64,000 nt of DNA from Novosphingobium sp. EMRT-2. Its GTDB lineage: Bacteria > Pseudomonadota > Alphaproteobacteria > Sphingomonadales > Sphingomonadaceae. Below are positions 7,311 through 63,871 of this stretch, piece after piece. The DNA lies in NCBI RefSeq assembly GCF_005145025.1, contig NZ_CP039695.1, positions 372,001 to 436,000 on the forward strand. The letters are read 5' to 3'. How positions within the stretch are numbered: position 1 is the first letter of the stretch; every line of letters begins with the position of its first letter. A program made the translations under genes and the position numbers. The notes under the pieces are model-generated. The model searched no databases and was not told the DNA's origin. It worked only from the letters and a program-made list of their open reading frames with translations.

Positions 7311-7424
7311 TACCGGTTGCGCCGCGGGGGCGGGCGTCGGTGATCTTGTTCACCGGCGATGAACCTTACGGAACCGCCGCAAACCGTCTTGCCCCTTTGC
7401 CGATTGCCGCTTAACCCGCGCGGC

Positions 7425-8972: not shown

Positions 8973-8979
8973 TAGGAAA

Positions 8980-9014
8980 GGGCGGGGCAACCTTCGGGTT
9001 CTCCGTCCTTTTTT
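8980..9014 (+). terminator. Rho-independent terminator after proS
   Basis: Stem GGGCGG (8980-8985) pairs with CCGTCC (9003-9008, one G-U). An inner stem AACC/GGTT closes a stable TTCG tetraloop at 8993-8996. Six T follow at 9009-9014. It starts 8 bases after the proS stop. Confidence 0.75.
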
Positions 9015-9061
9015 CCGCGTATGCTTGCGAGGAGCGCGGCCGAAGGGTTACCTTGCGGGGC

Positions 9062-10443: not shown

Positions 10444-12747
10444 ATGCCGGCGATGGTTCATGCGAAGTCTTCCCACGGTTCCCGCCCCCCGGAGGGCCTG
10501 CCCACGCGCCAGCAGGTGCTCGATTTCATCGCCCGGTCCGATGAGCCCGCCGGCAAGCGCGAGATCGCGCGCGCGTTCGGGCTGAAGGGGCAGGAGAAGA
10601 TCGCCCTCAAGGCGCTGCTCAAGGACATGGCCGAGGAAGGCCTGATCGACGGCAACCGCACCGCGTTTCACCGCATGGGCGGCGTGCCGCGCGTGACTGT
10701 GCTGCGCGTGGTCGATACCGAGGACGGTGAGGCAATCGCCATTCCCGATAGCTGGCACCCCGACGACGGCGCTCCGCCGCCGCGCCTGCGGCTGGTGGAG
10801 CAGCGCGGCAAGCAGCGGCAGCAGGCGTTGCGCGTGGGCGACCAGGTGCTGGCGCGGACCGAGGAAGCCGGGAAGGGCTGGATCGCCCATCCGATGAAGA
10901 AGCTGCCCGCCCAGACCGACCAGATGCTGGGCGTGGTCGAGATCGACGGCGCGGGCAAGGGATGGCTTGCCCCGGTGGACAAGCGCGTGCGCAATGCGGT
11001 GCCGATCAGCGATCTGGGGCAGGCGGAGGTCGGGCAGCTGGTGCTGGCGGAACCCGCCGGGCGTTCGCCCCGCTCGGGCCTGAAAGTGACGACGGTGCTG
11101 GGCGATCCGCTCGCCCCGCGCGCGTTCAGCCTGATCGCCATCCACAAGTACGGCATCCCGTTCTCGTTTACGGAAAAGGCCATCGAGGAAGCGAAGCTCG
11201 CGGCCGCCTTGCCGCTGAGCGAGGACTGTCGCGAGGATCTGCGCCATCTTCCGATCGTCGCCATCGACCCCGTCGACGCGCGCGATCATGACGACGCGAT
11301 CTGGGCGGAACCGGATGGCGAGGGCGGCTTCCGCGCGCTCGTCGCCATCGCCGACGTCAGCTTCTATGTCCGCCCCGGCGGCGCGGTCGACCGGGATGCG
11401 CGCAAGCGGGGCAACTCCGTCTATTTCCCCGATCGCGTCGTGCCGATGCTGCCCGAAGTGCTCAGCGCCGATGTCTGCTCGCTCAAGGCGGGATCGGACC
11501 GCGCGGCGATGGCATGCCACATGGTGATCGACGCGCAGGGCCGCGTGACGTCATGGCGCTTCACCCGCGCGCTGGTGCGGGTCGCCGAAGTGATCGCCTA
11601 TGAGGAAGCGCAGCGCCGGATCGACGCCAGCGAAGCAGCGCCGCACCTGGCGCACCTGTGGGCCGCGTGGCGGCTGCTGGAAAAGGCGCGGAAGGAGCGC
11701 GATCCGCTGGAACTCGATCTGCCCGAACGGCGCGTGATGCTCGACGAACAGGGGCGGATCGCCGAGGTGGCGCTGCGCGAACGGCTCGACGCGCATCGCG
11801 TGGTCGAGGATTTCATGGTCACCGCCAACGTCGCCGCCGCCAAGGCGCTGGAGGCGAAAGTCGCGCCGGTGATCTATCGCATCCATGAACCGCCCACGCG
11901 CGAAAAGCTGCTCGCGCTGAAGGACTACCTCGCCACGTTCGATCGCAAGCTGGCGCTGGGGCAGGTGATTACCCCGTCGCTGTTCAACCGGATGCTGAAG
12001 GACGTGACCGACGAGGCGGAAAAGGCGCTGGTCATGGAAGCGGTGCTGCGCAGCCAGACGCAAGCCTACTATGGCCCGCGCAACGCCGGCCACTTTGGCC
12101 TGTCGCTGGGCAGCTACGCCCATTTCACCTCGCCCATCCGCCGCTATTCGGACCTGCTGGTCCACCGCGCACTGGTCGATGCCTATGGTCTGGAACAGCC
12201 GCGCCCGCAGGACCACGACCTGCCGCCGACGAGCGGCCTGGCCGACCGCGACCGCAACGATCTGGCGCGGGTAAGCGAAGCGATCAGCGCCAGCGAGCGG
12301 CGGGCGATGGAAGCCGAGCGCGAAACGATCGACCGCTATGTGGCGGCATGGCTGGCCGGCCGCGTGGGCGAAGTGTTCGATACGCGCATCACCGGCGTCC
12401 AGAAGTTCGGCCTGTTCGCCACGATCATCGGGCTGGGCGGGGACGGGCTGGTGCCGGTTTCGGTGCTGGGCGCCGAACGCTTCGCCTATGACGAAAAGGC
12501 GCAAGTGCTGGAAGGCGAAAACAGCGGCGAACAGTTTGCGATGGGCATGATCCTCAAGCTGCGGCTGGCCGAGGCCAACCCGCTGACGGGCGCGCTGAAG
12601 TTCGAGCCGGTCGACGTGGCCGAAGGCGTGAGCCGGATCGAGCGCCGGGGTGGCAAGCTTCCGGGCAAGCCGAAGCCCAAGGGCAAGTTCATGACCGGAA
12701 AGCGCGGGCGGCCGTCCAACATCCGCCATCAGGGCAAGCGCAAGTAG
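10444..12747 (+). CDS. rnr: Ribonuclease R
   Basis: RNase R (VacB), a processive 3'-5' exoribonuclease that degrades structured RNA. The 767-residue protein has an N-terminal winged-helix-like region (about 15-70), cold-shock-type beta domains, and the RNB catalytic domain containing DPVDARDHDDAIWAE with the metal-binding aspartates (about residues 277-291). A C-terminal S1 domain follows (GRVGEVFDTRITGVQKFGLF), then a Lys/Arg/Gly-rich basic tail usual for RNase R. A second in-frame ATG at 10453 is an alternative start. It stands alone, ending just before a convergent AT-richer gene. Confidence 0.95.
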   Translation: MPAMVHAKSSHGSRPPEGLPTRQQVLDFIARSDEPAGKREIARAFGLKGQEKIALKALLKDMAEEGLIDGNRTAFHRMGGVPRVTVLRVVDTEDGEAIAIPDSWHPDDGAPPPRLRLVEQRGKQRQQALRVGDQVLARTEEAGKGWIAHPMKKLPAQTDQMLGVVEIDGAGKGWLAPVDKRVRNAVPISDLGQAEVGQLVLAEPAGRSPRSGLKVTTVLGDPLAPRAFSLIAIHKYGIPFSFTEKAIEEAKLAAALPLSEDCREDLRHLPIVAIDPVDARDHDDAIWAEPDGEGGFRALVAIADVSFYVRPGGAVDRDARKRGNSVYFPDRVVPMLPEVLSADVCSLKAGSDRAAMACHMVIDAQGRVTSWRFTRALVRVAEVIAYEEAQRRIDASEAAPHLAHLWAAWRLLEKARKERDPLELDLPERRVMLDEQGRIAEVALRERLDAHRVVEDFMVTANVAAAKALEAKVAPVIYRIHEPPTREKLLALKDYLATFDRKLALGQVITPSLFNRMLKDVTDEAEKALVMEAVLRSQTQAYYGPRNAGHFGLSLGSYAHFTSPIRRYSDLLVHRALVDAYGLEQPRPQDHDLPPTSGLADRDRNDLARVSEAISASERRAMEAERETIDRYVAAWLAGRVGEVFDTRITGVQKFGLFATIIGLGGDGLVPVSVLGAERFAYDEKAQVLEGENSGEQFAMGMILKLRLAEANPLTGALKFEPVDVAEGVSRIERRGGKLPGKPKPKGKFMTGKRGRPSNIRHQGKRK

Positions 12748-51426: not shown

Positions 51427-52791
51427 ATGACGCATCAGGTTCACATCATCGGCGGCGGCATGGCCGGCAGCGAGGCGGCATGGCAGCTCGCCCGGCGCGG
51501 CGTGCGCGTGCGCCTTTCGGAAATGCGGGGCGCCAACCTGCCCGGTGGGGGAGACACCACGGCCGCGCACCAGGGCACGGGCCTGGCCGAACTGGTCTGC
51601 TCCAACAGCTTCCGCTCGGACGATCACGAAAAGAACGCGGTCGGCCTGCTGCACGAGGAAATGCGCCGCTGCGACAGCCTGCTGATGGCGGCGGCCGAAA
51701 AGGCGCGCGTGCCCGCCGGCTCGGCGCTCGCCGTGGACCGTGAGGTGTTCTCGGCGGCAGTCGAACAGGCGCTGGCGGAACTGCCCAACCTGGAGATCGT
51801 GCGCGAGCGGGTGGACGTGCTGCCGGCGCAGGGTCCGGTGATCGTCGCCACCGGCCCGCTCACCGCGCCGGCGCTGGCCGAGAGCATCGGCGGCGCGACC
51901 GGGGCGGACGCGCTCGCGTTCTTCGATGCCATCGCCCCCATCATCCACCGCGACAGCATCGACATGGACGTGTGCTGGATGGCGAGCCGGTGGGACCGGG
52001 GCGAGACCAAGGACTACATCAACTGCCCGATGAACCGCGAGCAATACATCGCGTTCCGGCAGGGCCTGCTCGATGGCGAGAAGACCGCGTTCAAGGAATG
52101 GGAAGCGGATACGCCCTATTTCGATGGCTGCATGCCGATCGAGGTAATGGCCGAACGGGGCGAGGACACGCTGCGCTTCGGGCCGATGAAGCCGGTGGGG
52201 CTGGACAACCCGCACAGCGCCACGCCCGAATTTCCGCGCGGGCGCTGGCCCTATGCCGTGGTGCAGCTGCGGCAGGACAACAAGCTCGGCACGCTGTGGA
52301 ACATGGTGGGCTTCCAGACCAAGCTGAAGCACGCCGAACAGGTGCGGCTGTTCCGCACCATTCCCGGCCTGGAGAACGCCGAATTCGCGCGGCTGGGCGG
52401 GCTGCACCGCAACACCTTCCTCAATTCGCCCACGCTGCTGGACCGGCAGCTGCGCCTGAAAAGCCGCCCGCACATCCGCTTCGCCGGGCAGATCACCGGC
52501 TGCGAAGGCTATGTCGAAAGCGCCTCGGTCGGCCTGCTCGCCGGACTGATGACCGCCCACGAACTCGCCGGCCGCCCCTGGACCCCGCCCCCCCGCACCA
52601 CCGCGCTCGGCGCGCTGCTCGCCCACATCACCGGCGACGCCGAGGCGGAAAGCTACCAGCCGATGAACGTGAACTTCGGCCTGTTCCCGCCGGTGGACGC
52701 CAGCGTGAAGAAGAAAGTGCGCAAGGAGGCGTACACGGCGCGGGCGAAGCGGGACTTGGGGGAGTGGCTGTTGGGGGGGTGTGAGGTTTAA
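51427..52791 (+). CDS. trmFO: tRNA (m5U54) methyltransferase TrmFO
   Basis: Folate- and FAD-dependent enzyme making ribothymidine at position 54 of tRNA. The 454-residue protein starts at ATG 51427. It has the FAD site [19 protein letters not shown] (residues 6-24), [20 protein letters not shown], a catalytic-cysteine region around NCPMNREQY, and [17 protein letters not shown] in the C-terminal third. The frame opens earlier at 51385, but those residues lie outside the family. Its use here, rather than a SAM-dependent TrmA, is usual for alphaproteobacteria. Confidence 0.95.
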
Positions 52792-53192
52792 TCGAAGGTT
52801 GGGGTGCTAGGGCGAGAGCCGACCAGACCCGGTCATTCCTGATTAGAGCAATGAACGTCTGCTTCCGCCAAGAGCAGCCCGGCTGCTTCCGGGGTCCTGA
52901 CCCTAGGCCGCGGGTTCCTGCACTGGAGGCTTTCGTACGCAAGCGCCCGAAATTCTTCGCAACGCACGCCGTTTCGGGACTCATGCTTTAGCCACTGATC
53001 TTATCGGAACCTACCGATTCTATTCTAAAAAACAGTCCAGCATGGCACGCACAAAGAAGAACAGCGACCGTTATGGATTCGGTAATTCCAATTTTCGAGA
53101 TGGAGCAAGATTTCCGATTGCTGCGTGTGCAGCCAGACTGCGCCGCCGGAGAGCAACAAACACGTTTTGTACGCCGGAGGCGTCTTGCTGTG
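52792..53192. other. 401-base gene-free stretch after trmFO
   Basis: No gene with coding character was found. Composition drops in GC from about 52,980 onward. A perfect short hairpin ACGCC-GGA-GGCGT (53171-53183) lies 10 bases beyond the stop of the histidine kinase, which reads towards it, and may end that transcript, though it lacks a T-run. The part at 52,840-52,910 looks like degenerate intergenic sequence, possibly an old repeat. Confidence 0.5.
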
Positions 53193-55118
53193 TCATCTGA
53201 ATAGCGGGAGCCAGAGCGAAACCTGTGTCCCGTCCTCCTTTGCGTTTACGATGGTTAACTGAGCACCCAGGGCCTTTGCCCTTACCATCATGTTATGGTG
53301 ACCTTTCCCGCGCGGTCGGGCTACATCAGCACCAAGGGACCGATCAAGACCCGCACCGTTATCAGCGAGAATGATTTCGGCACCGGGTCTCCCTTCACGG
53401 AATGACAGCCGCGAGGTGAAGGTAATGACATTGCCCCCGGAATGGGTGAGTGCATTGCTCAGCGCCTCCTGAAGAATGCGCAGGACGTGCAGGGCGTTGG
53501 CCGAATCCAGCCATTCGAGGGCAGGCACGTTCTCGACCCGCCAGTCAAATCGCCAGCCCGCAGCGCGCAGCTCCGGCTCCATGCGATAGCGGAAACTGGC
53601 CAGCAGCAGGGTGATATCGCCATCGACCTGTTCGAGCGAATCGACCGCGATCCTGAGATCGGTAAGTGAACGCTTTAGCGTGGCGACTGTACGGCGGGAT
53701 GCATCGCCATGTTCGGCAACAGCAAGTGCGGAGATCAGGTTGGCGCCGACGCTGTCATGCATCTCGCGCATGATCCGCTCGCGCTCCTGTTCTAGCGCCA
53801 CGGCAACTTCGAGTTCGCGGATCTGCTTCTGATTGCGCTCCAGTTCGGCGCTGGCGACGGCCACCCGCTCTTCGAGGATGACGTTGAGGTTCTCGACCGT
53901 GCCCAGTGCATCGATCAGGCGTCGGCCCAGCGCAAAGGCAAAGACCAGGAAGATCATCACGCCCGCATAGGGAAGCAGCGCGAAATGCACGCCCTGCCAC
54001 GCCTTCATGCCGAGACCGAAATCGTGGATGGCCGAGGCGATGCCCATCGCCGCAGCGGTGAACATCGCGATATTCTCGGGCTTGCGATTCACCAGAGCGG
54101 CCCGGCCGAACACGACGAGGATGGCGATCGACAGCGGGATGACGAGCAGGTGGCTGAAGACATCGCCCACGCCCAGGCTGGTCAGCACCAACTGGCTGAC
54201 GATCGCGGTCGCGGCGATGCCTAGCGACACGATGGTCCACAGCTGCCGGTTGCGGATGTCCAGAAAGCGGGCTGCAAAGCAGTAGAATACGGCCATCATT
54301 GCGAAGATGATGTTGATCTGCACATGCCAGTATAGGTCGATCGGAACCGGCGGCGCTTCATAGTAATAGCGCAGGTTGCGGATGAACCACAGACTGCCGA
54401 GCAGCGCCAGCCAGCCCAGTGTGGCGTCCTGCCGTCGCCGCAACCACAGCAGGATCGCAAAAAGGGCGAGGATACCTAGCATGGAATTGGAGACGAGCAC
54501 CCCCTGAAACTGGGTGATGTAGCGCCAGTTGTAGATTTTGCGGATCGCTGTTTCCGGGCCGATTTCCATGCGGCTGACGCCGAGCGTGTAGATCTTTGCG
54601 GATTCGAGCCGGATTGCGATTTCATTGCGGCCAGGGCGGATCAAGGCCGCCGGCAGTCCTACCAGTTGCGGCTTGAAGGTCGACACCGGAAGGTCCGCCG
54701 GGTCGGCGTAGTTGCGGAAAACCTCCCTCCCGTTGATGAAGAAGCGGAAGCGCTCGCTCATGTAGGCGGCGGTCCAGGCGATCGGGACGGCACTGACCGA
54801 CGCAGCGCGCGATGAGCCCGGCAAGTCTGTGTCCAGATAAAAGCGCACCCACATTACGCGTGGCTGGGGGTTGCGCGGCGCGGCATAGAGATCGAGCAAG
54901 GGCACGCTGGCGCGCTGCCAGCCTTCCGTGGGAGGCTGCTGCGCATCGCTGTAGAGGTAATCGCCTGCCGGCACGGATACGGCGGCTTTGTCTGACAGAT
55001 GCACCACCGCGCTCGCCGGCTGCGCTGCCTGCACGGCAGGAGGCAGGACGGCGCTGGCGACGATCCAGAAGCCAATGCCCACGAGAAACGCCGACAATCG
55101 CGCCAGTAGCCGTGGCAT
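53193..55118 (-). CDS. 7TM-type sensor histidine kinase (HisKA_3)
   Basis: A 641-residue sensor kinase. From ATG 55118 it has a signal peptide and a periplasmic beta-rich domain of about 160 residues like the 7TMR-DISM extracellular domain. About seven TM helices follow (residues about 210-400), then a coiled coil, a HisKA_3 phosphoacceptor ERERIMREMHDSVGANLISA and HATPase_c with LQEALSNALTHSGG and DNGAGLDRS. The frame continues to a TTG at 55157. Its LuxR-type partner lies just upstream in the same operon. The sensed signal is unknown; DISM domains often bind carbohydrates. Confidence 0.9.
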   Translation of the reverse strand: MPRLLARLSAFLVGIGFWIVASAVLPPAVQAAQPASAVVHLSDKAAVSVPAGDYLYSDAQQPPTEGWQRASVPLLDLYAAPRNPQPRVMWVRFYLDTDLPGSSRAASVSAVPIAWTAAYMSERFRFFINGREVFRNYADPADLPVSTFKPQLVGLPAALIRPGRNEIAIRLESAKIYTLGVSRMEIGPETAIRKIYNWRYITQFQGVLVSNSMLGILALFAILLWLRRRQDATLGWLALLGSLWFIRNLRYYYEAPPVPIDLYWHVQINIIFAMMAVFYCFAARFLDIRNRQLWTIVSLGIAATAIVSQLVLTSLGVGDVFSHLLVIPLSIAILVVFGRAALVNRKPENIAMFTAAAMGIASAIHDFGLGMKAWQGVHFALLPYAGVMIFLVFAFALGRRLIDALGTVENLNVILEERVAVASAELERNQKQIRELEVAVALEQERERIMREMHDSVGANLISALAVAEHGDASRRTVATLKRSLTDLRIAVDSLEQVDGDITLLLASFRYRMEPELRAAGWRFDWRVENVPALEWLDSANALHVLRILQEALSNALTHSGGNVITFTSRLSFREGRPGAEIILADNGAGLDRSLGADVARPRGKGHHNMMVRAKALGAQLTIVNAKEDGTQVSLWLPLFR

Positions 55119-55172
55119 GGCGGTGGCCGAAGGGAATGCGGGCGGCAAGAGAGTCAACGCGGCGATACCGGA

Positions 55173-55814
55173 TCAGTAGAGCGAAATTATGCCACGCGAA
55201 CTGGCTTCGAACACGGCTTCGGACCGGGATCGTACCTCAAGCTTGCGGTACAGGTTCTTGACGTGGGTGGCGATGGTCTGCGCCGAGAGATGCAGCATGT
55301 CGGCGATCTCGCCATAGGAAAAGCCACGGGCCAGCATGTTGAGCACTTCCGTCTCGCGCGGAGTCAGGGCAACCTCGGGTCCGTCGGACGCTGTGGCCGG
55401 GGCCAGCTGGCGCAGCAATTGCCGGGCGATGATCGGGCTGATGGGAGAGCCACCAGCGCGCACTTCACGGATTCGTTCGGAACAGCCATCGAGATTTTCG
55501 TCCTTGAGCAGGTAGCCGCGCGCGCCTGCCTTGATGCTGTTCAGCACTTTGGCCTGTTCGGCAAATACGGTGATGACGATGATGTCTGCTTCAGGATTGA
55601 CGGTGCTGCTGGCGCGGATCACATCGATGCCGCTGCCATCGGGAAGGCCAAGGTCGCACAGCAACACGTCATAGCCGCCTGCCGCGATCAGCGGGTGGCT
55701 CTGCGCAACATTGGCGGCAGTGCCGACGACGGTCATGTCCTCCAGACCGACAAGACTGTGTTCAATGCGTCCCAAAGTCACAGGATCATCTTCCACAATG
55801 GTGATTCGGATCAT
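55173..55814 (-). CDS. LuxR/NarL-family response regulator
   Basis: A 213-residue two-component response regulator. The receiver (1-120) has VEDDPVTLGRIEH, phospho-Asp54 in LLCDLGLPDGSG, and VFAEQAKVLNSIKAGARGYLLKD. The C-terminal GerE helix-turn-helix reads LTPRETEVLNMLARGFSYGE followed by IADMLHLSAQTIATHVKNLY. The histidine kinase follows after 54 bases (15 bases to its extended TTG start). It is divergent from the DUF3617-like gene and the adhesin cluster, which makes that cluster its most likely target (inference). Confidence 0.93.
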   Translation of the reverse strand: MIRITIVEDDPVTLGRIEHSLVGLEDMTVVGTAANVAQSHPLIAAGGYDVLLCDLGLPDGSGIDVIRASSTVNPEADIIVITVFAEQAKVLNSIKAGARGYLLKDENLDGCSERIREVRAGGSPISPIIARQLLRQLAPATASDGPEVALTPRETEVLNMLARGFSYGEIADMLHLSAQTIATHVKNLYRKLEVRSRSEAVFEASSRGIISLY

Positions 55815-55851
55815 GCTGTGCCCCTGTTTGCACGAACCTGTGGCTTATAGT

Positions 55852-55908
55852 GTGGTTTGTCACAAATCACGCTACCCAGTTCGGGTGAGATACACCCTAC
55901 CGGAACTG
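55852..55908. promoter_or_regulatory. Two inverted repeats in the divergent promoter
   Basis: IR1: GTGGTTTGT (55852-55860), one base, ACAAATCAC (55862-55870), 8 of 9 positions paired. IR2: CAGTTCGGG (55877-55885) and CCGGAACTG (55900-55908), 8 of 9 paired, with 14 bases between the arms. They lie 38 bases upstream of the response-regulator start and 41 bases upstream of the lipoprotein start. They are the obvious candidate sites for the adjacent LuxR-type regulator. Confidence 0.55.
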
Positions 55909-55949
55909 TTTTAGCAAACGTCATGCAGCACCCAAAAGAGGCGACAAGC

Positions 55950-56417
55950 ATGACTTTCCGATCCTGCCTGATGGCAACCTGCGTGATGTTGGCGACGGCG
56001 TGCGGCTCCGCCCCGGAACCTGAGCAAACCAAGGCGGGCAGCGCGAGTCCCGCCGCGGCAATGGCCGGTGGCACTACGCGGCCAAGCCTGAACCCCGGCC
56101 TGTGGCAGACGACATCGGACCGGGCAAAGGTGGCAGGCCCGCAGGAAAGCCGCTGCATCTCGAAGGAAGAGGCCGATCGCACTGTCAACGGCAGCGACGA
56201 ACAGATCCGCAAGGCGCTTGAGGAACAGGCGGCGAAAGATTCCTGCACGCTGAACGATGTCAGGATCAACGGTTCGACCATAGCCTTCGGCATGACATGC
56301 AGCGGCATAAAGATGTCTGTTTCGACCGACTATCGTGGCGACAGTTCGACGACGACCATGACCAGCGGCGCGATGGGAAAGATGACCACCGAAGGCGTGC
56401 GCAAGGGCGACTGCTGA
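55950..56417 (+). CDS. DUF3617-like lipoprotein
   Basis: A 155-residue protein starting at ATG 55950. The N-terminus (MTFRSCLMATCVMLATACGS) ends in a lipobox-like LATAC, so it should be a lipoprotein whose mature part starts at Cys18. The mature part shows the DUF3617 pattern: PGLWQTTSDRAK, a CISKEEAD segment, a second cysteine in DSCTLNDVRI and MTTEGVRKGDC at the end. DUF3617 proteins are abundant in sphingomonads and have no known function. It faces the regulator genes across a promoter with two inverted repeats and precedes the trimeric autotransporter by 153 bases. Confidence 0.78.
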   Translation: MTFRSCLMATCVMLATACGSAPEPEQTKAGSASPAAAMAGGTTRPSLNPGLWQTTSDRAKVAGPQESRCISKEEADRTVNGSDEQIRKALEEQAAKDSCTLNDVRINGSTIAFGMTCSGIKMSVSTDYRGDSSTTTMTSGAMGKMTTEGVRKGDC

Positions 56418-56462
56418 CCTTCGCGATAGCAGCGACACTGCGCTGATCCTTTCCTGAAACTC

Positions 56463-56491
56463 GCGGACCCCGGCGCAACGAGCGGGGCCGC
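56463..56491 (+). terminator. Strong hairpin between the lipoprotein and adhesin genes
   Basis: GCGG-A-CCCC (56463-56471) pairs with GGGG-CCGC (56484-56491), with one bulged A and a 12-base loop. No T-run follows, so it could attenuate or protect the mRNA rather than fully terminate. Confidence 0.4.
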
Positions 56492-56570
56492 TCCGGGCCG
56501 ACCGCCGCGGGCGGGCTGGCCTTCGCCGGGTCGCGTCCAAACCGAACTTCAATTGATCGAGGATTGTACG

Positions 56571-58754
56571 ATGACACACGAGTCTCTTTTGCGCGGCGCA
56601 AGCAAGGCAGCCCTGGTTGCTGCGCTGTCGCTTGGCGCTGCCACCGCCGCCTACGCCGATGCCACGCCACAGTGCAATGATGGCGCCGTTGTGCAAGCGG
56701 CTACCGAATGCGGTAGCAGTTCCACCGCGTTGGCGGAGGGCGCAACCGCCGTTGGCGTTGGTGCGATTATCGATCCCAATTCGACGCAGGGCACGGCAGT
56801 CGGCTCGTTCTCCGTTATACAGAATCGGCATGGGGTCGCACTGGGCACTGGCACTTTTGCGATGGGCTCGACGCCGGGCAGCGTCGCACTGGGCGCGTTC
56901 TCCGTTGCAAGCTCTACCATGGCAGCCGGACCGGTCATCATACAGCCGGCGGCCGGTCCGATCGGCAGCGTATCCGTCGGCTATCTGGCCCGCGCATCGG
57001 GCCTCAGCAATGTGGCGCTGGGCGGCGGTGCGCTTGTGGGTGTGCCCGACCTGTTCAACACCTTCCAGAACAGCACGGCGATCGGCGCCTTTGCGCTGGT
57101 CAGCGCCAATAATGCCGTCGCGCTGGGCCGTGGTGCCACTGTTGCCGCCGATGGTGGCCTTGCCATCGGCAATGACGTGATTGTCCGTGGCGCAGGGACC
57201 ACGCTTATCAACAGCAGGGGCACCAATTCCGCGTTGGCGACCGGGCTTAACAGTGCCTTCACCGCGGATCGCAGCGTAACCATCGGGTCAGAAAGCTTCA
57301 CCGCCAAGGCGAACTCGATTGCCATCGGCGTTTCGGCCGCGGTCAACGCGGGCGATGGAACGGGACAGTTGCCTGTCCGCCTGCCCGAAAATGAGCCGGC
57401 CGGGAATGTCGTGATCGGTGCATTGTCCACCTCCAATGGCGACAACAATCTCGTGCTCGGCAATTATGCCGCTGCATCTGGCCGCTATGACGCTGCCGGG
57501 AACACGCTCCCGATCGTGAACTATGCAACGGCGGTCGGCACCGGCGCGACTGTCGAGGCCACGCGCGGCACGGCGCTAGGGCATGGCGCGCTGGTCACTA
57601 CCGCCAATTCGGTCGCCATTGGGGCCGGTTCGGTGGCCAACGAGGAAGGCACCGTCTCCTTCGGCACCATCGGCAACGAGCGCCGCCTGACGAACGTGTC
57701 CGCCGGGCTTGCCGAAACCGATGCCGTCAATCTGGGCCAGCTCAATGCCCTGCAGGCGAATTTCTATATCACCGCCATCGCCGCCCAGCAGCAGATCAAC
57801 AATGCGCTTTCGCGCACGGATTACATCGCGGTCAACTCGGGCGAAGGGTCGGTCCGGCCCCGCGCAACCGGGCGCAATGCCTTGGCGATCGGATCGGGTG
57901 CAGTGGCCGACAGCGACGCCGCAGTGGCCATGGGCGAAGGCGCGCAGGCAACCGAGGGCAAGGCCGTGTCGATCGGCGCGGGCAATGTCGCCGCGGGCAA
58001 TGGTGCAGTCGCGATCGGCGATCCGAACCTTGCCACGGGAACCGGCGCGGTCGCCATTGGCAAGGACAATACCACGACCGGCGATGGAGCCGTGGCGCTT
58101 GGCAATGCTTCCACTGCAAGCGGCGCTGGCGGGGTCGCCATCGGCAACCAGGCCAATGCCGGAGATTCATCCATCGCCATCGGCAACGGTGCCGAGGCAG
58201 GCCTGGCGGGCAGCGTGGCGATCGGCAATGGCGCGCAGGCAAGCCGTGAAAACGAGGTGGCGCTGGGCAATTCCAGTTCGACCTACACGTTCGCCGGGCT
58301 CGCCCGTGGTGGCGAAGGCCCGCCTGCGCCGCCAAAGTTCACCGAGGTGGATGCGCAGGGGCGCGTTACCAGTTCGTCGGTCGGCCCGCAGGACATCGTC
58401 AACCTTCAGGGCCAGCTGGCCACGCTGGCTGCGCAGACGACGGGCATCTCTAACCGGGTCGATGCTCTGGCGGGCCGTGTCGACGGCATCGATTCGCGCA
58501 CGACCGCTCTCGAACGCCAAGCCCGCCAAGCCAATGGCGGGATCGCCGCCGCCATGGCCATCGGCAACGCGTTCCTGCCCGAAGGGCAAAGCGTCGCCAT
58601 CTCGTTCAATCTCGCTACCTATCGCGGCGAACAGGGCTTTTCCGGTGCCGTGGTCGCGCGGGTGAACGACCATGTCTGGGTCAGCGGAGGCTTTGCCGGA
58701 TCGACAATCCGGGGATCGGCGGGCGGGCGCGCCGGGATCACCTTCGGCTGGTAA
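56571..58754 (+). CDS. YadA-type trimeric autotransporter adhesin
   Basis: A 727-residue trimeric autotransporter (type Vc secretion). ATG 56571 gives a Sec signal ending near AYADA. The passenger is mostly YadA-head-type beta-roll: dozens of small-residue strands of the form AVA(I/L)G, sparse at first, then a tight array of about ten 14-residue repeats at residues about 440-575 (examples: GAVAIGKDNTTTGDGAVALG, GSVAIGNGAQASRENEVALG). A short coiled-coil stalk (about 615-655) leads to the four-strand YadA anchor ending ...GRAGITFGW. Three chains would form the outer-membrane pore. It is complete, with no frameshift. The stalk is unusually short. Confidence 0.93.
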   Translation: MTHESLLRGASKAALVAALSLGAATAAYADATPQCNDGAVVQAATECGSSSTALAEGATAVGVGAIIDPNSTQGTAVGSFSVIQNRHGVALGTGTFAMGSTPGSVALGAFSVASSTMAAGPVIIQPAAGPIGSVSVGYLARASGLSNVALGGGALVGVPDLFNTFQNSTAIGAFALVSANNAVALGRGATVAADGGLAIGNDVIVRGAGTTLINSRGTNSALATGLNSAFTADRSVTIGSESFTAKANSIAIGVSAAVNAGDGTGQLPVRLPENEPAGNVVIGALSTSNGDNNLVLGNYAAASGRYDAAGNTLPIVNYATAVGTGATVEATRGTALGHGALVTTANSVAIGAGSVANEEGTVSFGTIGNERRLTNVSAGLAETDAVNLGQLNALQANFYITAIAAQQQINNALSRTDYIAVNSGEGSVRPRATGRNALAIGSGAVADSDAAVAMGEGAQATEGKAVSIGAGNVAAGNGAVAIGDPNLATGTGAVAIGKDNTTTGDGAVALGNASTASGAGGVAIGNQANAGDSSIAIGNGAEAGLAGSVAIGNGAQASRENEVALGNSSSTYTFAGLARGGEGPPAPPKFTEVDAQGRVTSSSVGPQDIVNLQGQLATLAAQTTGISNRVDALAGRVDGIDSRTTALERQARQANGGIAAAMAIGNAFLPEGQSVAISFNLATYRGEQGFSGAVVARVNDHVWVSGGFAGSTIRGSAGGRAGITFGW

Positions 58755-58817
58755 CGGGATGGCCCGGGGCAGCGCACACTGTCCCGGGCCATGCCGATCC
58801 TGAAAGAGGCAAGAGAC

Positions 58818-59279
58818 ATGGCTTCTTCAATCTCCCTTGCGGCGATCTGCCTGATCCTGACCAATGCTGTCGGGGCCGTCACTGCGGCGCGCCTGCTACC
58901 ACCGGATACATCGCAACCAATCACCATCCGCGCATCGTGCACGGGCGGGCTGGTTCCGCTCGAACGTGATATCACCGTGTCCACTGCGGGAACCGTCGTG
59001 GCGCGCGTGGCCGGGCGCGTTTCGACGGGCCGGATCGAACCGCAGGAGGTGCGAGCGCTGTCTGCGCGCATGGATGCGAGCGGGTTCGATGCGGTCACGG
59101 CTCCGGTGCGACCTTCCATGCCGCGGGCCGATGCCCGCCTTTGCGCCCTGGTGCGAACTTCAAGGACCGGAACGCAGAGCATTGCGATGTCGCGCAAGAC
59201 ACCGGTCGGACTGCGCCGGGTGCTGGACGATCTGCTGCGCATCAAGGTGCAGCCAGAACCCTCAGGTGTCGGACGATGA
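58818..59279 (+). CDS. Exported hypothetical protein downstream of the adhesin
   Basis: A 153-residue protein starting at ATG 58818 behind a strong purine-rich site (AAGAGGCAAGAG); an in-frame ATG at 58791 lacks one. The first 25 residues are a Sec signal. The mature part has two cysteines (IRASCTGG and DARLCALV) and a central RIEPQEVRALSARMDASGFD helix. I recognise no family. It follows the adhesin by 63 bases and overlaps the next gene by 4 bases (ATGA), so it is a member of the same transcript. Confidence 0.75.
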   Translation: MASSISLAAICLILTNAVGAVTAARLLPPDTSQPITIRASCTGGLVPLERDITVSTAGTVVARVAGRVSTGRIEPQEVRALSARMDASGFDAVTAPVRPSMPRADARLCALVRTSRTGTQSIAMSRKTPVGLRRVLDDLLRIKVQPEPSGVGR

Positions 59280-59917
59280 GCGGAACCCCACACCTGCCCA
59301 CACGGCGATTGCGCCCTGCCTCGAAAACCCTGATTGCTGGCGCGCTCGGCCTGACCACTCTCACGGCGGGACCGACAGCGCTGGCCGCGCCCCGCTTTCC
59401 CACCGCGGCGCAGGTGAACCGGGCGATGGCGCGCAGCGACGACTATAGGGGGACGTCTGTCGGCCGCATGGCCGGATGTTTCCCGTTGATCTCCGAAGAG
59501 GGCGCGCAAGGCCCTGCCGGGCGCTCATGGTACTGTGCAGCTCAAGGGTCACCAGTGCCGGCGGGGGCTGCATTCCTCGAATTCGCCATTCGCCGGGCAG
59601 GGCGGACCGGCCCCTGGGCCATGGTGGTGGGCGAACTGGGCGCGGCCTGCCCACCGGGGGCAGCGATCAGACAGGAAGGCCTGCGCGCCATGTCCCGGCG
59701 CGGGGTGACCGGCCTGTTCACCGACAAGGGGCCGTTCCTGGGTGACCTTGGCGAGGAACCTAGCGGGCGGGCCATAGTCGCTTGTCCCTATCTCGGCAGG
59801 CTGGGGGCAAACCACTTCCAGATCACGCTGCGCTTCACCTTCGATGGCACAGACTACCGCCGCGTGGGCGCGGTCACCGAAGAGGTGTTCGACAGCAACG
59901 GAAACCCCGTCCCATGA
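59276..59917 (+). CDS. Exported hypothetical protein, 213 residues
   Basis: A 213-residue protein starting at ATG 59276, overlapping the previous stop. It has an unusually long, Arg-rich N-region (LPTRRLRPASK) before a signal core (LIAGALGLTTLTAG), with cleavage near ALA-APR. The mature part contains four cysteines (in GCFPLI, WYCAAQG, AACPPG and VACPYLG), suggesting disulfide-stabilised folding in the periplasm, and ends FDSNGNPVP. No family recognised. The frame is open upstream to 59141, which would overlap the preceding gene wholly. It is 74 bases before the next gene. Confidence 0.75.
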   Translation: MSGTPHLPTRRLRPASKTLIAGALGLTTLTAGPTALAAPRFPTAAQVNRAMARSDDYRGTSVGRMAGCFPLISEEGAQGPAGRSWYCAAQGSPVPAGAAFLEFAIRRAGRTGPWAMVVGELGAACPPGAAIRQEGLRAMSRRGVTGLFTDKGPFLGDLGEEPSGRAIVACPYLGRLGANHFQITLRFTFDGTDYRRVGAVTEEVFDSNGNPVP

Positions 59918-59991
59918 CGGGCGGCCTCCGGCGCCCATCCCGCCCGCCCCTGCCATGCAGCCATCCCACTTTCCGTCAGAAGGGAACCTCC

Positions 59992-60984
59992 ATGAAACGA
60001 CTATCCGCCCTCAGCCTCGTCCTTGCCAGCCTCACCCTGTTCGAACCGATTACCGCTGCCGCGCAGGTAGGGCCGCTTGCCAGGCGCGGACCAGCTACCC
60101 CCACCGCAATCCCGCCAAGCCTTGCCCCAAACATCCGCCGGGTGCGCACGGATCGGCCGGATAGTCGCCAGCCACTGCGCGAAGAAGCTGCCGCCCTGCG
60201 AAGCATGGGGCCGGTGCCGGGTCCGATCTGCGAGGATTGCGTGACCACTATCAATGGCCGGACCATCGCCAATGTGACTTTCACCCCAAGCGCGGCCGAC
60301 ATCCCGGCAATTTACACCATCACCGGCAACGGCTTTGGCGATGTGCCAGGCGGGGTGTTCCTGACCGGACCGTTCAAGACCCGCCCGGAACTGCGCGTCG
60401 AAAGCTGGAACAACCGCCAGATCAAGGTCTACTTTCCCCAGGGCCTGCGCGGCGAACCTGATCTTCAGGGCGTGGGCCTTACGGTTCGCCTGAAGAGCGG
60501 CAAGCTTATCTCCACGCCGATGACCGCGCGCTTCCTGGCCGCGCGCGAGGAACAGGTGATCGACTTTGCCGGCATCCCTCAAAAATCTGTCCGCTGGCAA
60601 AGCAACACTTCGCTGACGATGACGATTGAAGATGGTGGCCTCAGGTTTTCGGGCGTGAATGTCGGGGATTCGGTGAAGACCGGCTACACCGACCGGATCG
60701 TGCTGAACTTCCTGGCCAGTGGCTTTGCCGCGACGTCCTTCTCGGTCGGCTTCTGTCGGCAGGATACTGGCGATGGCGCTGCCTATGGAGGCGCGGGAGG
60801 CCGTTACCTCTATGGCCGCTACGATGCGCGCTGGGATGGCGACGATATCGTGATCGACCGCGCCATGTGGCACACCCATCGGTCACGCAATCTGCTGATT
60901 CCCGAGGACGACGCTTTCCTGTCCTGCTTCCGCGATCTGCGCATCACCGTCGAAGGCCCTGCCGGGCTGAAGCCGGTTCGCTGA
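59992..60984 (+). CDS. Exported protein with IPT/TIG-like beta-domain
   Basis: A 330-residue exported protein from ATG 59992 (AAGGGAAC site upstream); the signal ends near AAAQ. A Pro-rich region covers about 30-75, then CEDC (a CxxC pair), then a stretch like an IPT/TIG domain: YTITGNGFGDVPGGVFLTGP and VESWNNRQIKVYFPQGLRG. The C-terminal half has FCRQDTGDG, LSCFRDLRITVEGPAGL and no obvious active site. It resembles the next gene in strand order and in the final VEGP-G--P motif, so the two are probably paralogues. Function unknown; a surface-binding or structural partner of the adhesin is possible. Confidence 0.72.
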   Translation: MKRLSALSLVLASLTLFEPITAAAQVGPLARRGPATPTAIPPSLAPNIRRVRTDRPDSRQPLREEAAALRSMGPVPGPICEDCVTTINGRTIANVTFTPSAADIPAIYTITGNGFGDVPGGVFLTGPFKTRPELRVESWNNRQIKVYFPQGLRGEPDLQGVGLTVRLKSGKLISTPMTARFLAAREEQVIDFAGIPQKSVRWQSNTSLTMTIEDGGLRFSGVNVGDSVKTGYTDRIVLNFLASGFAATSFSVGFCRQDTGDGAAYGGAGGRYLYGRYDARWDGDDIVIDRAMWHTHRSRNLLIPEDDAFLSCFRDLRITVEGPAGLKPVR

Positions 60985-60996
60985 GGGAGACGATCC

Positions 60997-61938
60997 ATGC
61001 GCTATCCAGCCGCTTCCACCGCTCGCCTTGCCGGTCTGGCATTTCTGGCCATGACCGCGTCCAACACTGCATCTGCCCAGCCTGCCCCCCGACGCGCGTT
61101 GGAAAGACCCCCCGTCCAGACCGCTCCGGCGCTCGATCAGGGCAGCCAGCAAGACTTGAAGGGGCTGCTCATCAACAACGGAACTTTCCCAGAGTACCGC
61201 ACCGGCATCAATCTCGACATTCGCCACGAAGCCATCAGGGAGAGCGGCCCGCGTGTACGCGTGCAGCTCTATCTGCCGCTGGATAACCTGAGGGTCCTGA
61301 TCGCGCCGCAGGCGCAGCTTGACGGCAGGCTGATCGCGCATCTGCCAGCCGATCTCTACGCCCGTTCGGGAAAAGCCGAACTGACCGTGATCGTCGGCGA
61401 CACCACGCTGCGCAATACCACCGGGCGGTTCGTCGCCGAGATCGTGCCTGTGCACGCCGACAAGATCCTCCCGTTCACCACGGTCCGCTGCACAGTGATG
61501 TGCGTCAGCTGGCCCGCGTCGAAGGATCTTCCAGCCAAGTGGGTGAGCACGACGAAGATCCACGACCAGTTCGAACATACCGCGCCAACCGGCGAGGAAG
61601 TGGGCGGCAAATGGTCGGTCGGGCAGACAACCTATCACCTCACCTCGCGGCGCCTGAAGGATCAGTTCCGGTTCACGCGGGTTCGCATGTTCTCGCCCAC
61701 AATGTCGGGCGGGTGCCCGGCCAACATCAGGGAGAATGTCTGGGTCTATCCGGGCCAGCCCCTGCCGCAAGCTGATGATTACAGCGGTCTGCACGAACTC
61801 GATGTCTACGCCCGCGCCAATGTCGTCCACTGTCGCGCGCGCGGCAAGAACAACTTCGATGCGACCCATTTCGTGTTTGCGGACATGGTTGTCGAAGTCG
61901 ATGTCGAAGGTCCGAAAGGGGTGGACCCGTGGCAATAG
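60997..61938 (+). CDS. Exported protein, probable paralogue of the preceding gene
   Basis: A 313-residue exported protein; signal core LAGLAFLAMTASNTASAQ at residues about 11-28. A linker of about 30 residues leads to a beta-rich domain (VRVQLYLPLDNLRVLIAPQA, AELTVIVGDTTLRNTTGRFV). Cysteines lie at VRCTVMC, SGGCPAN and VVHCRARG. The end MVVEVDVEGPKGVDPWQ matches the end ITVEGPAGLKPVR of the upstream protein, and LTV...T..RF-A.....I-F also aligns. It starts 12 bases after that gene and overlaps the next by 10 bases. Function unknown. Confidence 0.72.
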   Translation: MRYPAASTARLAGLAFLAMTASNTASAQPAPRRALERPPVQTAPALDQGSQQDLKGLLINNGTFPEYRTGINLDIRHEAIRESGPRVRVQLYLPLDNLRVLIAPQAQLDGRLIAHLPADLYARSGKAELTVIVGDTTLRNTTGRFVAEIVPVHADKILPFTTVRCTVMCVSWPASKDLPAKWVSTTKIHDQFEHTAPTGEEVGGKWSVGQTTYHLTSRRLKDQFRFTRVRMFSPTMSGGCPANIRENVWVYPGQPLPQADDYSGLHELDVYARANVVHCRARGKNNFDATHFVFADMVVEVDVEGPKGVDPWQ

Positions 61939-62432
61939 CCCGATGGCCGCTGCTCGCCCTCTTCGCCGCGTGTGCCTGCACGGCCAGGGGCCGGCACGCT
62001 GCAAACGGCCACGATGGCGTGCCGGTCCGGCCCGGCCTGTGGAGTGTCGTTGCCCTGACCGACGACGGGGAAGACCCGGCAAGCCGCACCGAAGCCTGCC
62101 TTGCCGAACAGACCTGGTTCGCGATGGCTGCGCTGACCTCCGGCTCGCGCGAGATGGGCTGCGAACCGCTCGAAGCCATGTTGCCACGCGGGCCGGGCGC
62201 ACCGGTAACCGGTGCCCGTGAAGTGTGCCGACAAGGCAGTAAGACCGTAGTCCGCACCGTGTCGCTTGATGGCGTCCGTCCGGCGGGTCAGCCGCTCGTG
62301 GCTTTCGACGAAGTGACCCGCCTGCGTGTCGAAGGTCAGCCTGGCGAGGAGATCAGCCGCACACGCCATGTCTGGCTGGGAGCTTGTCCGGGTCCGAGCG
62401 GCGAGCTTCTCGGACTTAAGGCGGAGCGATGA
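61929..62432 (+). CDS. Putative lipoprotein, DUF3617-like
   Basis: A 167-residue protein starting at GTG 61929, inside the 3' end of the preceding gene. The N-terminus (PLLALFAACACTARG) offers a lipobox-like LFAAC. The mature part has VRPGLWSVVALTDDGEDPAS, a cysteine in TEACLAEQ, one in EMGCEPL, one in REVCRQGS and one in LGACPGP; the GLW start and cysteine layout resemble DUF3617, the family seen at the front of this cluster. Assignment is tentative. It overlaps the next gene by 4 bases. Confidence 0.7.
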   Translation: MAIARWPLLALFAACACTARGRHAANGHDGVPVRPGLWSVVALTDDGEDPASRTEACLAEQTWFAMAALTSGSREMGCEPLEAMLPRGPGAPVTGAREVCRQGSKTVVRTVSLDGVRPAGQPLVAFDEVTRLRVEGQPGEEISRTRHVWLGACPGPSGELLGLKAER

Positions 62433-62875
62433 ACTTGGGCTTCGATCGCACTTTCACCCTGGGAAAGACGAATAGAATGACGAACGGAGATGGCTTTCAG
62501 CCTCATGATGCGCAGCAGCTTCGCCTGAAGCTGCGCAGGCTCTGGAAGCCTTTCATCGCACTCGCCATTGTTGTTGCGGCTGGCCACGTCGTGTCATTTA
62601 GCCTTGCAGAGCGCTATCTTCGCCCAGCCTGCGCTGCCGCTGCGGAACAAAGGCACTGGCAAAACGACGGCTACCGGCTTCCAGGCCCGGTCAAAGCGCG
62701 CGGCCCGCGACGTAGCTATTGCATCATGCGCGATGCCCAAGGCAGCGTGCACCTGCTTTCGGCAAACCGTGTGGCGATTTTCGCAATTGTCTTCGATCCT
62801 TGGTTGGTGAGCGTCGTCGTTGGCGTGCTCGCCGCTATCATTCTAGTTCGAAGAGATCGGCAGTCACCCAGCTGA
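62429..62875 (+). CDS. Hypothetical inner-membrane protein with two TM helices
   Basis: A 148-residue protein starting at ATG 62429 (ATGA overlap). A cytosolic N-tail of about 40 residues is followed by a TM helix (FIALAIVVAAGHVVSF), a loop with two cysteines (RPACAAA and SYCIMRD) and a second TM helix (WLVSVVVGVLAAIILV) ending in an Arg/Asp tail. Both ends would be cytosolic and the loop of about 60 residues periplasmic. It closes the run of cluster genes and is less GC-rich than they are. A hairpin with T-rich flank follows. No family recognised. Confidence 0.68.
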   Translation: MNLGFDRTFTLGKTNRMTNGDGFQPHDAQQLRLKLRRLWKPFIALAIVVAAGHVVSFSLAERYLRPACAAAAEQRHWQNDGYRLPGPVKARGPRRSYCIMRDAQGSVHLLSANRVAIFAIVFDPWLVSVVVGVLAAIILVRRDRQSPS

Positions 62876-63403
62876 GTAAAATTCGCACTGACGTGCTCGG
62901 CTCGGTCTGCAATGGCAGCGTTTGCAATACAGTGTTGCTTACGGCGTGGTCATTACATCCGAGTATCAGCCTGACTTTTTAGGCAGTAAGACTCTGACAG
63001 CAAAGTATGAAGGAAGGGCAACAATCAAGCTGCCCTCTTTTATGGATTGAAAGCGCGCCGCGGGTGATCAGAACTCCCCAGGCACCCCGGCACGGCCGGT
63101 AAACATACGTCTGCCTGCGTCGAGCGCGCCTGCTGCCACAACGTATGGATTGTCCGTGTCCATGCGATGCGCCAGCGATACGCGCGAACCCACCTGCCGG
63201 CGATAGACCGATATGCCTGCTGTATGCACTGCGCACCATGAATGGCAGGTCCCGACGTAACTTGCCGTTCCTACGCGGGTTGGCGAACAACGGCTTTGTC
63301 CCAAGATCGGTCGATCGCGATATCCCACTAGCTTCGCAAAAGAACGGCAGCTTCCCAGCAGCGATTCCCGGCAATCGAAAATCGCCTTTATTGGCACGCC
63401 CCC
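62876..63403. other. 528-base gene-free stretch after the adhesin cluster
   Basis: I find no convincing gene. The part at 62,880-63,060 is AT-richer and includes a terminator. A 109-codon open frame on the - strand (63,068-63,397) has no recognisable product, no good ribosome site and atypical composition, and may be chance or a gene relic. This stretch separates the accessory cluster from the EF-hand gene. Confidence 0.5.
63015..63041 (+). terminator. Probable terminator closing the adhesin cluster
   Basis: AGGGCA (63015-63020) pairs with TGCCCT (63031-63036) around a 10-base loop, followed by CTTTT. It lies about 140 bases after the last cluster gene. The stem is only 6 bp, so strength is moderate. 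Confidence 0.5.
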
Positions 63404-63871
63404 TCACCTGCACGCGCAATCCTGTCTTTTCTTCACCTTCGGCTTCGTCGTCGCGAATTCCGTGCGGGTGAGGGACTGGTCGCCGTTGGCGTCGGCAGTC
63501 TTGAAGCGGTCGGCGGTCTTGACCGCCCATTCCTCGAAGCTGAGCAGGTTGTTGCCGTCCACGTCGAGCTTGCGGAAATCGCGGACGCGCGGGGCCAGCA
63601 TCTCGTTGCGGGTGATGCGGCCGTCGCGGTCGCGGTCGAGGCGGTCGAAGCGCTGCTGTTCGCGGGTCTGCTCGCTCGCCTGCGGCAGCGCGGGGCCTTG
63701 CAGCCCTTCCCCGTCGGCATCGGGCAATTCGTCCGCCTCGGCCGTGGGCGTATCGAGCGCGAGCCGGGGCGCAGGCGGCGCGCCAGCTTGGGTCGCGCGG
63801 CCTTGCCACCAGAACAGGCCGGCGGCCACCAGCAACAAGGCTCCCAGGGCACCCAGCACGATCCGGTTCAC
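63404..63871 (-). CDS. Membrane-anchored EF-hand calcium-binding protein
   Basis: A 155-residue protein starting at GTG 63871. An N-terminal hydrophobic anchor or signal (LGALGALLLVAAGLFWWQG) is followed by an Ala/Pro/Glu-rich spacer and three EF-hand loops: DRDRDGRITRNE, DVDGNNLLSFEE and DANGDQSLTRTE, each with acidic or Asn residues at positions 1, 3, 5 and Glu at 12. It should bind calcium outside the cytosol. The C-terminus is a short Lys-rich tail with two cysteines. It reads away from a gene on the same strand that begins beyond the window edge. Confidence 0.85.
   Translation of the reverse strand: MNRIVLGALGALLLVAAGLFWWQGRATQAGAPPAPRLALDTPTAEADELPDADGEGLQGPALPQASEQTREQQRFDRLDRDRDGRITRNEMLAPRVRDFRKLDVDGNNLLSFEEWAVKTADRFKTADANGDQSLTRTEFATTKPKVKKRQDCACR

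Follow-up and report, generated by a model that had tools for sequence, protein, structure and literature searches.

A trimeric adhesin, a two-component pair and linked, very rare exported proteins on an inserted block in Novosphingobium sp. EMRT-2

The described partners of trimeric autotransporters, SadB and TpgA, come one per adhesin, as far as the accounts drawn on here describe them (PMC3953254, PMC8151025). In the SadA/SadB system of Salmonella a small lipoprotein gene lies directly upstream of the trimeric autotransporter gene on the same strand, and a similar arrangement is seen in the window studied here, a 64,000-nucleotide stretch of contig NZ_CP039695.1 of Novosphingobium sp. EMRT-2. 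The likeness seen is one of position: the lipoprotein belongs to the DUF3617 family and is present also at a locus without an adhesin (genome G671), and here, in contrast to SadA/SadB, a divergent two-component pair adjoins the lipoprotein gene and six further genes (X1-X6) lie downstream. In Acinetobacter Tol 5, an exported partner gene likewise adjoins the trimeric autotransporter gene (AtaA/TpgA); however, a peptidoglycan-binding family of the TpgA type was sought among the Pfam matches of X1-X6 at E-values up to 0.5 and none was found. The two-component pair has the predicted domain order, in kinase and regulator, of NarL/FixJ systems with 7TM (7TMR-DISM) kinases, but differs from them in being restricted and accessory and in diverging from a DUF3617 lipoprotein gene. 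With moderate confidence, the locus is read as a horizontally acquired, two-component-controlled adhesion island, consisting of a regulator-lipoprotein-adhesin unit and a separable linked cassette.

The inserted block and its gene order

A block of ~10.6 kb (52786..63402, edges approximate, no strand assigned) is an insertion between trmFO (51427-52791) and an EF-hand gene (63404-63871). Of seven same-genus genomes, six have 86-253 bp between the stretches aligned to these two genes, while in the seventh, G015, whose flanks at this site are 93-95% identical to the window, 2082 bp with another reading frame separate them. The ten island proteins gave no match at E-values up to 1e-3 in the seven same-genus trmFO/EF-hand loci, and a search for terminal repeats of the island returned short, chance-level matches only. 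Base composition was also considered. Third-position GC is 0.62-0.77 in the ten island genes against 0.90 and 0.87 in the two flanking genes, but the window's other predicted reading frames average 0.79, with 8 of 33 below 0.78, and the measure was therefore dropped as evidence for an island. We infer a horizontal origin for the adhesin island.

The LuxR-type regulator and 7TM kinase genes diverge from a plus-strand lipoprotein-adhesin run, as the first-pass annotation had described, with coordinates and strands in agreement. It had counted five genes after the adhesin; there are six, X1-X6, to which its own listing also sums. The overlaps it reported, of 4 (X1/X2), 10 (X4/X5) and 4 bases (X5/X6), and the 12-base gap between X3 and X4 were all found, and a 74-base gap between X2 and X3 is to be added. 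These tight junctions, together with a gap of 63 bp between the adhesin stop and the start of X1 at 58818, are compatible with a single operon. Pairwise pN/pS values of 0.17-0.56 for the kinase, regulator, lipoprotein, adhesin, X4, X5 and X6, together with the existence of protein relatives for X2, X3 and X4, indicate that these reading frames are more than chance.

A strong 14-pair hairpin with no T-run lies on the plus strand just past the adhesin stop, between the adhesin and X1 (58755..58796; -39.3 kcal/mol, z -5.25, none of 200 shuffles as stable), and its arm pattern is unique within the genome. An ATG at 58791 sits inside this hairpin, which makes 58818 the more likely start of X1. At the same place past the adhesin stop, locus L063, that of G015, has an unrelated hairpin of -37.4 kcal/mol, with 3 of 200 shuffles as stable. 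A possible intrinsic terminator, a plus-strand hairpin followed by CTTTT, lies past X6 (63009..63041; fold z -2.9); it is absent from the listing of the consensus scan, and the matching stretch beside a second gene copy on contig C5 of the same genome folds no better than its shuffles (z -0.99).

The two-component pair, the lipoprotein and the adhesin

The sensor histidine kinase (53193..55157, minus strand) is predicted to have an N-terminal membrane segment, an exported domain, a 7TM region and HisKA_3 and HATPase domains, with Pfam scores that are all below cut-off (7TMR-DISM_7TM 27.9 against 29, HATPase_c 25.9 against 26.4 and HisKA_3 18.4 against 24 bits). The response regulator (55173..55814, minus strand) combines a receiver with a GerE helix-turn-helix, both over cut-off (Response_reg 64.2 and GerE 65.9 bits), and is thus of the NarL/FixJ type; it is 83-84% identical in loci L002 and L063. 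The kinase is present in 3 of 195 genus genomes, and at all three orthologous loci a DUF3617 lipoprotein gene diverges from it.

Comparison of the three divergent intergenic regions gave a conserved promoter footprint, TACCCAGTTCSGGKNAGATAC (55873..55893, plus strand), a candidate regulator site with a 12-column invariant run (column-shuffle frequency 0.00035). It matches the window once at up to 3 mismatches, and no second copy was found upstream of the adhesin or of X1. When 2 mismatches are allowed, the short core TACCCAGTTCSGG is matched 7 times in the window against 1.5 expected, the other six matches lying outside the island. On this arrangement, the exported domain of the 7TM kinase would sense an external cue and the kinase would phosphorylate the regulator, which may then bind the divergent-promoter site and switch on the DUF3617 lipoprotein-adhesin unit, and perhaps also drive its own operon. 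The presence of a two-component pair beside an adhesin was considered as a peculiarity of the island and rejected: distant pairs occur near genus adhesins at L057 (30% and 33% identical) and L062 (34% and 40%), and at further genus YadA loci a receiver-domain protein is encoded less than 5 kb away.

The DUF3617 lipoprotein (55950..56417, plus strand) scores 48 bits against PF12276, with a cut-off of 24.5. Its gene is found also in L063, L002 and L015, adjoining the regulator, the adhesin or both, and the L015 copy scores 48.1 bits. By tblastn among 36 other genus YadA loci, DUF3617 was detected at L063 alone, while a four-member profile found the window, L063, L015 and a weak match at L049 (E 0.001), which is separated from the adhesin by 2987 bp.

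The YadA-type trimeric autotransporter adhesin (56571..58754, plus strand; 727 aa) had been called complete. This was borne out for the head repeats and stalk, which pass the Pfam cut-offs (YadA_head 66.7 bits against 25, in 10 stretches; YadA_stalk 29.1 against 28.4), whereas the C-terminal anchor scores under its cut-off, YadA_anchor reaching 16.1 bits against 22.7 (E 0.012). The relatives in L063 and L015 also fall under this cut-off (19.8 and 18.7 bits), and a search of the whole EMRT-2 genome with the anchor family alone gave no match. The L063 adhesin is 66% identical to that of the window over its full length. The predicted product would be a trimeric fibre of type Vc, serving in attachment or in contact between cells.

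The X1-X6 cassette

All six genes are on the plus strand. X1 (58818..59279; 153 aa) is a small predicted exported protein with a hydrophobic N-terminus and had no family match in profile searches. X2 (59276..59917; 213 aa, 4 Cys) is also predicted to be exported. Five protein-database matches were obtained with it, of which the 100% one was taken as X2 itself and the other four are 80-89% identical; a remnant of 37 residues is present in L002. The predicted exported proteins X3 (59992..60984) and X4 (60997..61938) are modelled with an IPT/TIG-like (X3, residues 88-183) or Ig/IPT-like (X4, residues 55-148) domain and, in each, a C-terminal beta domain. X5 (61929..62432; 167 aa), predicted to be exported or lipoprotein-like, has no canonical lipobox by eye, and a second copy on contig C5 is 86% identical (pN/pS 0.27). 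X6 (62429..62875; 148 aa) is a predicted two-helix membrane protein, with hydrophobic segments near residues 42-60 and 120-138 and copies in L090 (81%) and L002 (63% over 81 aa). A role for X5 as a second DUF3617 protein was rejected, there being no Pfam match and a profile-comparison probability of 0.5%.

The description of these small proteins as unrecognized stands: for X1-X6, no curated family scored above its cut-off. An export signal or helix had also been claimed for every product. Hydropathy supports this for X1, X3 and X5, each with a hydrophobic stretch at the N-terminus, and for X6 with its two segments, but for X2, X4 and the DUF3617 lipoprotein nothing passed the hydropathy threshold, and their signals were judged by eye alone (the lipoprotein has Ala at -3).

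Both X3 and X4 are great rarities, and they are linked. Among 5.8 billion proteins, 11 matches were found for X3 and 10 for X4, relatives of roughly 50-60% identity among them; six longest-contig sizes are common to the two sets, one of them shared also with X2. Neither protein was found in viral contigs or in plasmids. A search for X3 in 385 genomes of the class found the EMRT-2 copy only; its genus search covered 24 of the 195 genomes besides this one. X4 was not found in 131 genomes of a Brevundimonas-like genus or 269 of its family, searches that held no positive control of their own, while the same profile on 259 genomes of the window's family matched the EMRT-2 genome and nothing else.

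In structural models of modest confidence (mean pLDDT 59 and 72), X3 and X4 both show an IPT/TIG-like domain alongside another beta domain. The only usable structural matches are to the IPT-like halves, at Z-scores just over a level that unrelated models often reach, and the rest of each model is not put forward as a new fold. Kinship between X3 and X4 by profile comparison was rejected, as this gave one 74-column stretch (probability 16%, E 0.0016), and the shared design accordingly rests on the two models. The predicted folds of X3 88-183 and X4 55-148 resemble those of IPT/TIG-domain proteins such as Bacteroides glycan-binding proteins and a cyclodextrin glucanotransferase domain. In contrast to these, X3 and X4 have a second beta domain with no clear match and invariant Cys residues, and no enzyme domain was found in them.

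It could be that the X cassette is the main contact or competition effector, with the adhesin as its accessory and the sensor family controlling contact effectors generally. Kinase neighbourhoods elsewhere lend this some colour: G671 has a further regulator-kinase pair (59% and 32-33% identical) whose divergent neighbour encodes a MACPF-domain protein; on an Acinetobacter plasmid, a kinase of 23% identity lies downstream of a chaperone-usher pilus operon; and a kinase on an Azospirillum plasmid precedes NHLP bacteriocin export genes. However, kinases of 23-30% identity are distant, two Variovorax/Cupriavidus neighbourhoods, seen as reading frames only, have no evident contact system, and family searches of X1-X6 found no toxin-like domain. 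This explanation is considered highly improbable.

Loci that carry the adhesin unit and the cassette apart

The separability of the two halves was directly observed at few loci, the base for comparison being three genus loci with the kinase, one of them on a MAG contig. G015 (L063) has an orthologous kinase, regulator and lipoprotein and a full-length adhesin, without any of X1-X6, and X3 was not found in its genome. Conversely, G671 (L086) has the kinase, regulator, lipoprotein, X4 and X6, with no adhesin at the locus. Note, however, that G671 is an incomplete MAG (81% complete, 500 contigs), so that an adhesin may lie elsewhere in its genome; the first-pass annotation had named a wide occurrence of the small genes without any adhesin as a refutation of its reading, and such an occurrence was seen at this one locus, not widely. 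On contig C5 of the EMRT-2 genome there is a second copy of the X4 end, X5 and X6, with no adhesin in the surrounding 19.9 kb.

Other genus adhesin loci were searched for X1-X6 by tblastn at E-values up to 1e-3, and 0 of 36 were positive. These loci represent 32 of the 33 further genus genomes positive for the YadA head (G701 and some G680 loci were left out); 14 of the stretches fall short of 19 kb, and counting head-repeat motifs identified an adhesin gene in 31 of the 36, rows without one being kept. The negatives rest on tblastn since the gene caller of that locus set dropped X3 of L015. On these 36 loci, X1-X6 as a common helper of genus adhesins were rejected.

The earlier suggestion of a dedicated helper set, in which the lipoprotein and X1-X6 assemble, anchor or decorate the adhesin as a larger form of SadB/TpgA-like assistance, with X3 and X4 attaching to the fibre or capping it, is therefore unsupported, with an orthologous adhesin unit free of the six in G015 and X4 and X6 free of an adhesin at the G671 locus. 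Tight gene packing, the one-partner precedents as these sources present them (PMC3953254, PMC8151025) and the proximity of X3 to a DUF3617-adhesin pair both in the window's genus and in a Brevundimonas-like genome, where X3 is divergent from the pair, speak in its favour, and it is retained as an unlikely explanation. A narrower version, somewhat more doubtful still, is that X3 and X4 are a new IPT/TIG-type exported partner pair that, with the DUF3617 lipoprotein, decorates or anchors a sensor-controlled trimeric autotransporter. If true, this would amount to a regulated multi-protein type Vc surface apparatus common to two orders of Alphaproteobacteria.

A different interpretation is that the adhesin unit sits beside the X cassette by chance, the two being unrelated cargo at an insertion hot spot with ordinary gene packing. 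The different cargo at the trmFO/EF-hand site of G015, the hairpin past the adhesin and the separate occurrence of the X4 end, X5 and X6 on contig C5 all point this way. Yet in G671 the kinase, regulator and DUF3617 gene are again accompanied by X4 and X6, though in a gene order different from that of the window, and in a different bacterial order X3 keeps its link with DUF3617 and an adhesin. Chance association is likewise considered unlikely.

Since the fibre part and some of the extra genes occur separately in relatives, X1-X6 look like a co-carried add-on. Under the favoured reading, of an adhesion island with a separable cassette, the two rare IPT/TIG-like exported proteins, three small exported or lipoprotein-like products and one membrane protein would travel with the same two-component system, probably under its control, and may fulfil an additional role at the surface or in the periplasm instead of acting as obligatory adhesin assembly factors. 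The island couples a trimeric adhesin to its own putative two-component switch, a DUF3617 lipoprotein and linked, very rare exported proteins, and offers a genetic handle on the DUF3617 and X3/X4 families; the natural loci without one half, in G015 and G671, indicate which of the parts can be studied separately.

Other small exported families recur at genus YadA loci, one of them in 4 loci and another in 3; the tested member of the latter, from L075, matched DUF4019.

The gene island at the trmFO/EF-hand site

Ten genes occupy the region at about 52786-63402, between trmFO and an EF-hand gene. A histidine kinase (53193-55157) and a regulator (55173-55814) are encoded on the minus strand, and a DUF3617 lipoprotein (55950-56417), the adhesin (56571-58754) and, 3' of the latter and reaching 62875, the genes X1-X6 on the plus strand. 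The adhesin is followed by six genes, not by the five of the first-pass annotation. YadA head repeats and a stalk scored above the Pfam cut-offs in the adhesin, and the anchor scored below its cut-off, as it did in two relatives.

The trmFO gene was present in all seven same-genus genomes chosen, and in six of them the aligned trmFO and EF-hand stretches lay 86-253 bp apart (92, 110, 86, 253, 128 and 133 bp). Nowhere in the seven stretches did any of the ten island proteins find a match (E up to 1e-3), so that ~52786-63402 is accessory DNA. In the seventh genome, G015, whose flanks were 93-95% identical, 2082 bp separated the two stretches (7248-9329 of the fetched locus L103). This different insert of ~2 kb carries a 686-aa reading frame that by its look we take to be an S9-type peptidase, and the site may thus be an insertion hot spot. 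An origin of the island by horizontal transfer is inferred; its ten genes include no visible integrase, and a look at its ends gave no convincing repeats.

The genome containing the window (4.77 Mb, five contigs) carries a second, partial copy. On contig C5, a stretch 87% identical to window positions 61778-63303 comprises the end of X4 followed by X5 and X6 (86% and 81% identical; 6999-10496 of L090, G000:C5:97000-116900), beside reading frames that resemble an IS21-type insertion element.

Separability of the adhesin unit and X1-X6

The kinase (74.7% identical), regulator (84.0%), DUF3617 protein (56.1%) and adhesin (66.2% over its full length) were all found at the G015 adhesin locus, L063, and X1-X6 were absent at E up to 1e-3 within the 19.7 kb fetched. 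Reading frames nearby resemble conjugation and transposase genes. The same-genus genome G671 (L002/L086; L002 lies on contig G671:C162) has the regulator pair, the DUF3617 gene, an X2 remnant, X4 (67%) and X6 (63% over 81 residues), arranged otherwise than in the window, and tblastn of the whole 17.6-kb contig detected no adhesin, X1, X3 or X5. YadA heads were present in 34 of 195 genus genomes, G671 not among them, although the absence of an adhesin there carries little weight because this metagenome-assembled genome is incomplete (81%, 500 contigs). Finally, X1-X6 were found at none of the 36 other genus adhesin loci (from 32 genomes, G015 included), 14 of which were cut to <19 kb. The regulator-lipoprotein-adhesin unit is well supported, and the gene run is real and accessory, but the proposal that X1-X6 form a dedicated helper set for the adhesin is not borne out by the G015 unit without X1-X6, the G671 X4 and X6 without an adhesin, and the 0/36 count. 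The linked cassette, with its IPT/TIG-like proteins X3 and X4, is rare.

SadA is described as aided by SadB and AtaA by TpgA (PMC8151025, PMC3953254). No literature linking DUF3617 with an autotransporter was found, and none of the papers found for trimeric autotransporters with Novosphingobium was on the subject, judged by title and opening abstract lines. Two families of small exported proteins were observed beside other genus adhesins, one at four loci (L058, L064, L069, L073) and one at three (L047, L075, L078; the L075 member matches DUF4019), and both are possibly those adhesins' own partners.

The two-component pair and its promoter

At E up to 1e-60 the kinase was found in three of 195 genus genomes (that of the window, G015 and G671), and the regulator and divergent DUF3617 gene were kept in all three orthologous loci. 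When the three divergent promoters are aligned, a block matching TACCCAGTTCSGGKNAGATAC stands out, 12 consecutive columns of which are invariant. In 20000 column shuffles, a test that ignores the relatedness of the three loci, a run of this length arose in 0.035% of trials, and no trial equalled the best 25-column count. There is a single occurrence of the block in the window, with no second site before the adhesin or X1, and it is a candidate site of the regulator.

G671 has a second such pair (regulator 59% and kinase 32-33% identical to those of the window) divergent from the gene for a 713-aa MACPF-domain protein (43.4 bits, cut-off 21.5; L087, contig G671:C154, 312-5135), which is the same layout with another effector. 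Distant kinase-regulator pairs of the same general type at L062 and L057 (34%/40% and 30%/33% identical) lie no more than a few kb from unrelated YadA-type genes, and a 23% identical kinase on an Acinetobacter plasmid (L092, NZ_CP024012.1) follows an operon for a chaperone-usher pilus that includes a subunit of the spore-coat-U type.

Coding constraint and transcription signals

Pairwise pN/pS was 0.27 for X5 and 0.33 for X6 against the C5 copy, 0.45 for X4 and 0.52 for X6 against L002, 0.34 for the adhesin, 0.52-0.56 for DUF3617, 0.17-0.20 for the regulator and 0.25 for the kinase, values that fit coding genes under constraint, the ratios being rough because synonymous distances are near saturation in the older pairs.

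A 14-pair hairpin with no T-run lies directly 3' of the adhesin stop, and this position is taken by an unrelated hairpin in L063, where X1-X6 are missing. The pattern would fit, without proving, processing or partial termination at the 3' end of the adhesin mRNA. The promoter scan returned no plus-strand sigma-70-like site in 55700-63400. Downstream of X6, a hairpin with a T-run (about 63009-63041, z -2.9) is only a possible terminator, because it was not listed by the consensus scan and its C5 counterpart folds no more stably than shuffles (z -0.99). In a Brevundimonas-like genome (L015), a perfect 15-base inverted repeat at 11422-11456, which separates X3 from the DUF3617 gene divergent to it, is possibly an operator or a two-way terminator.
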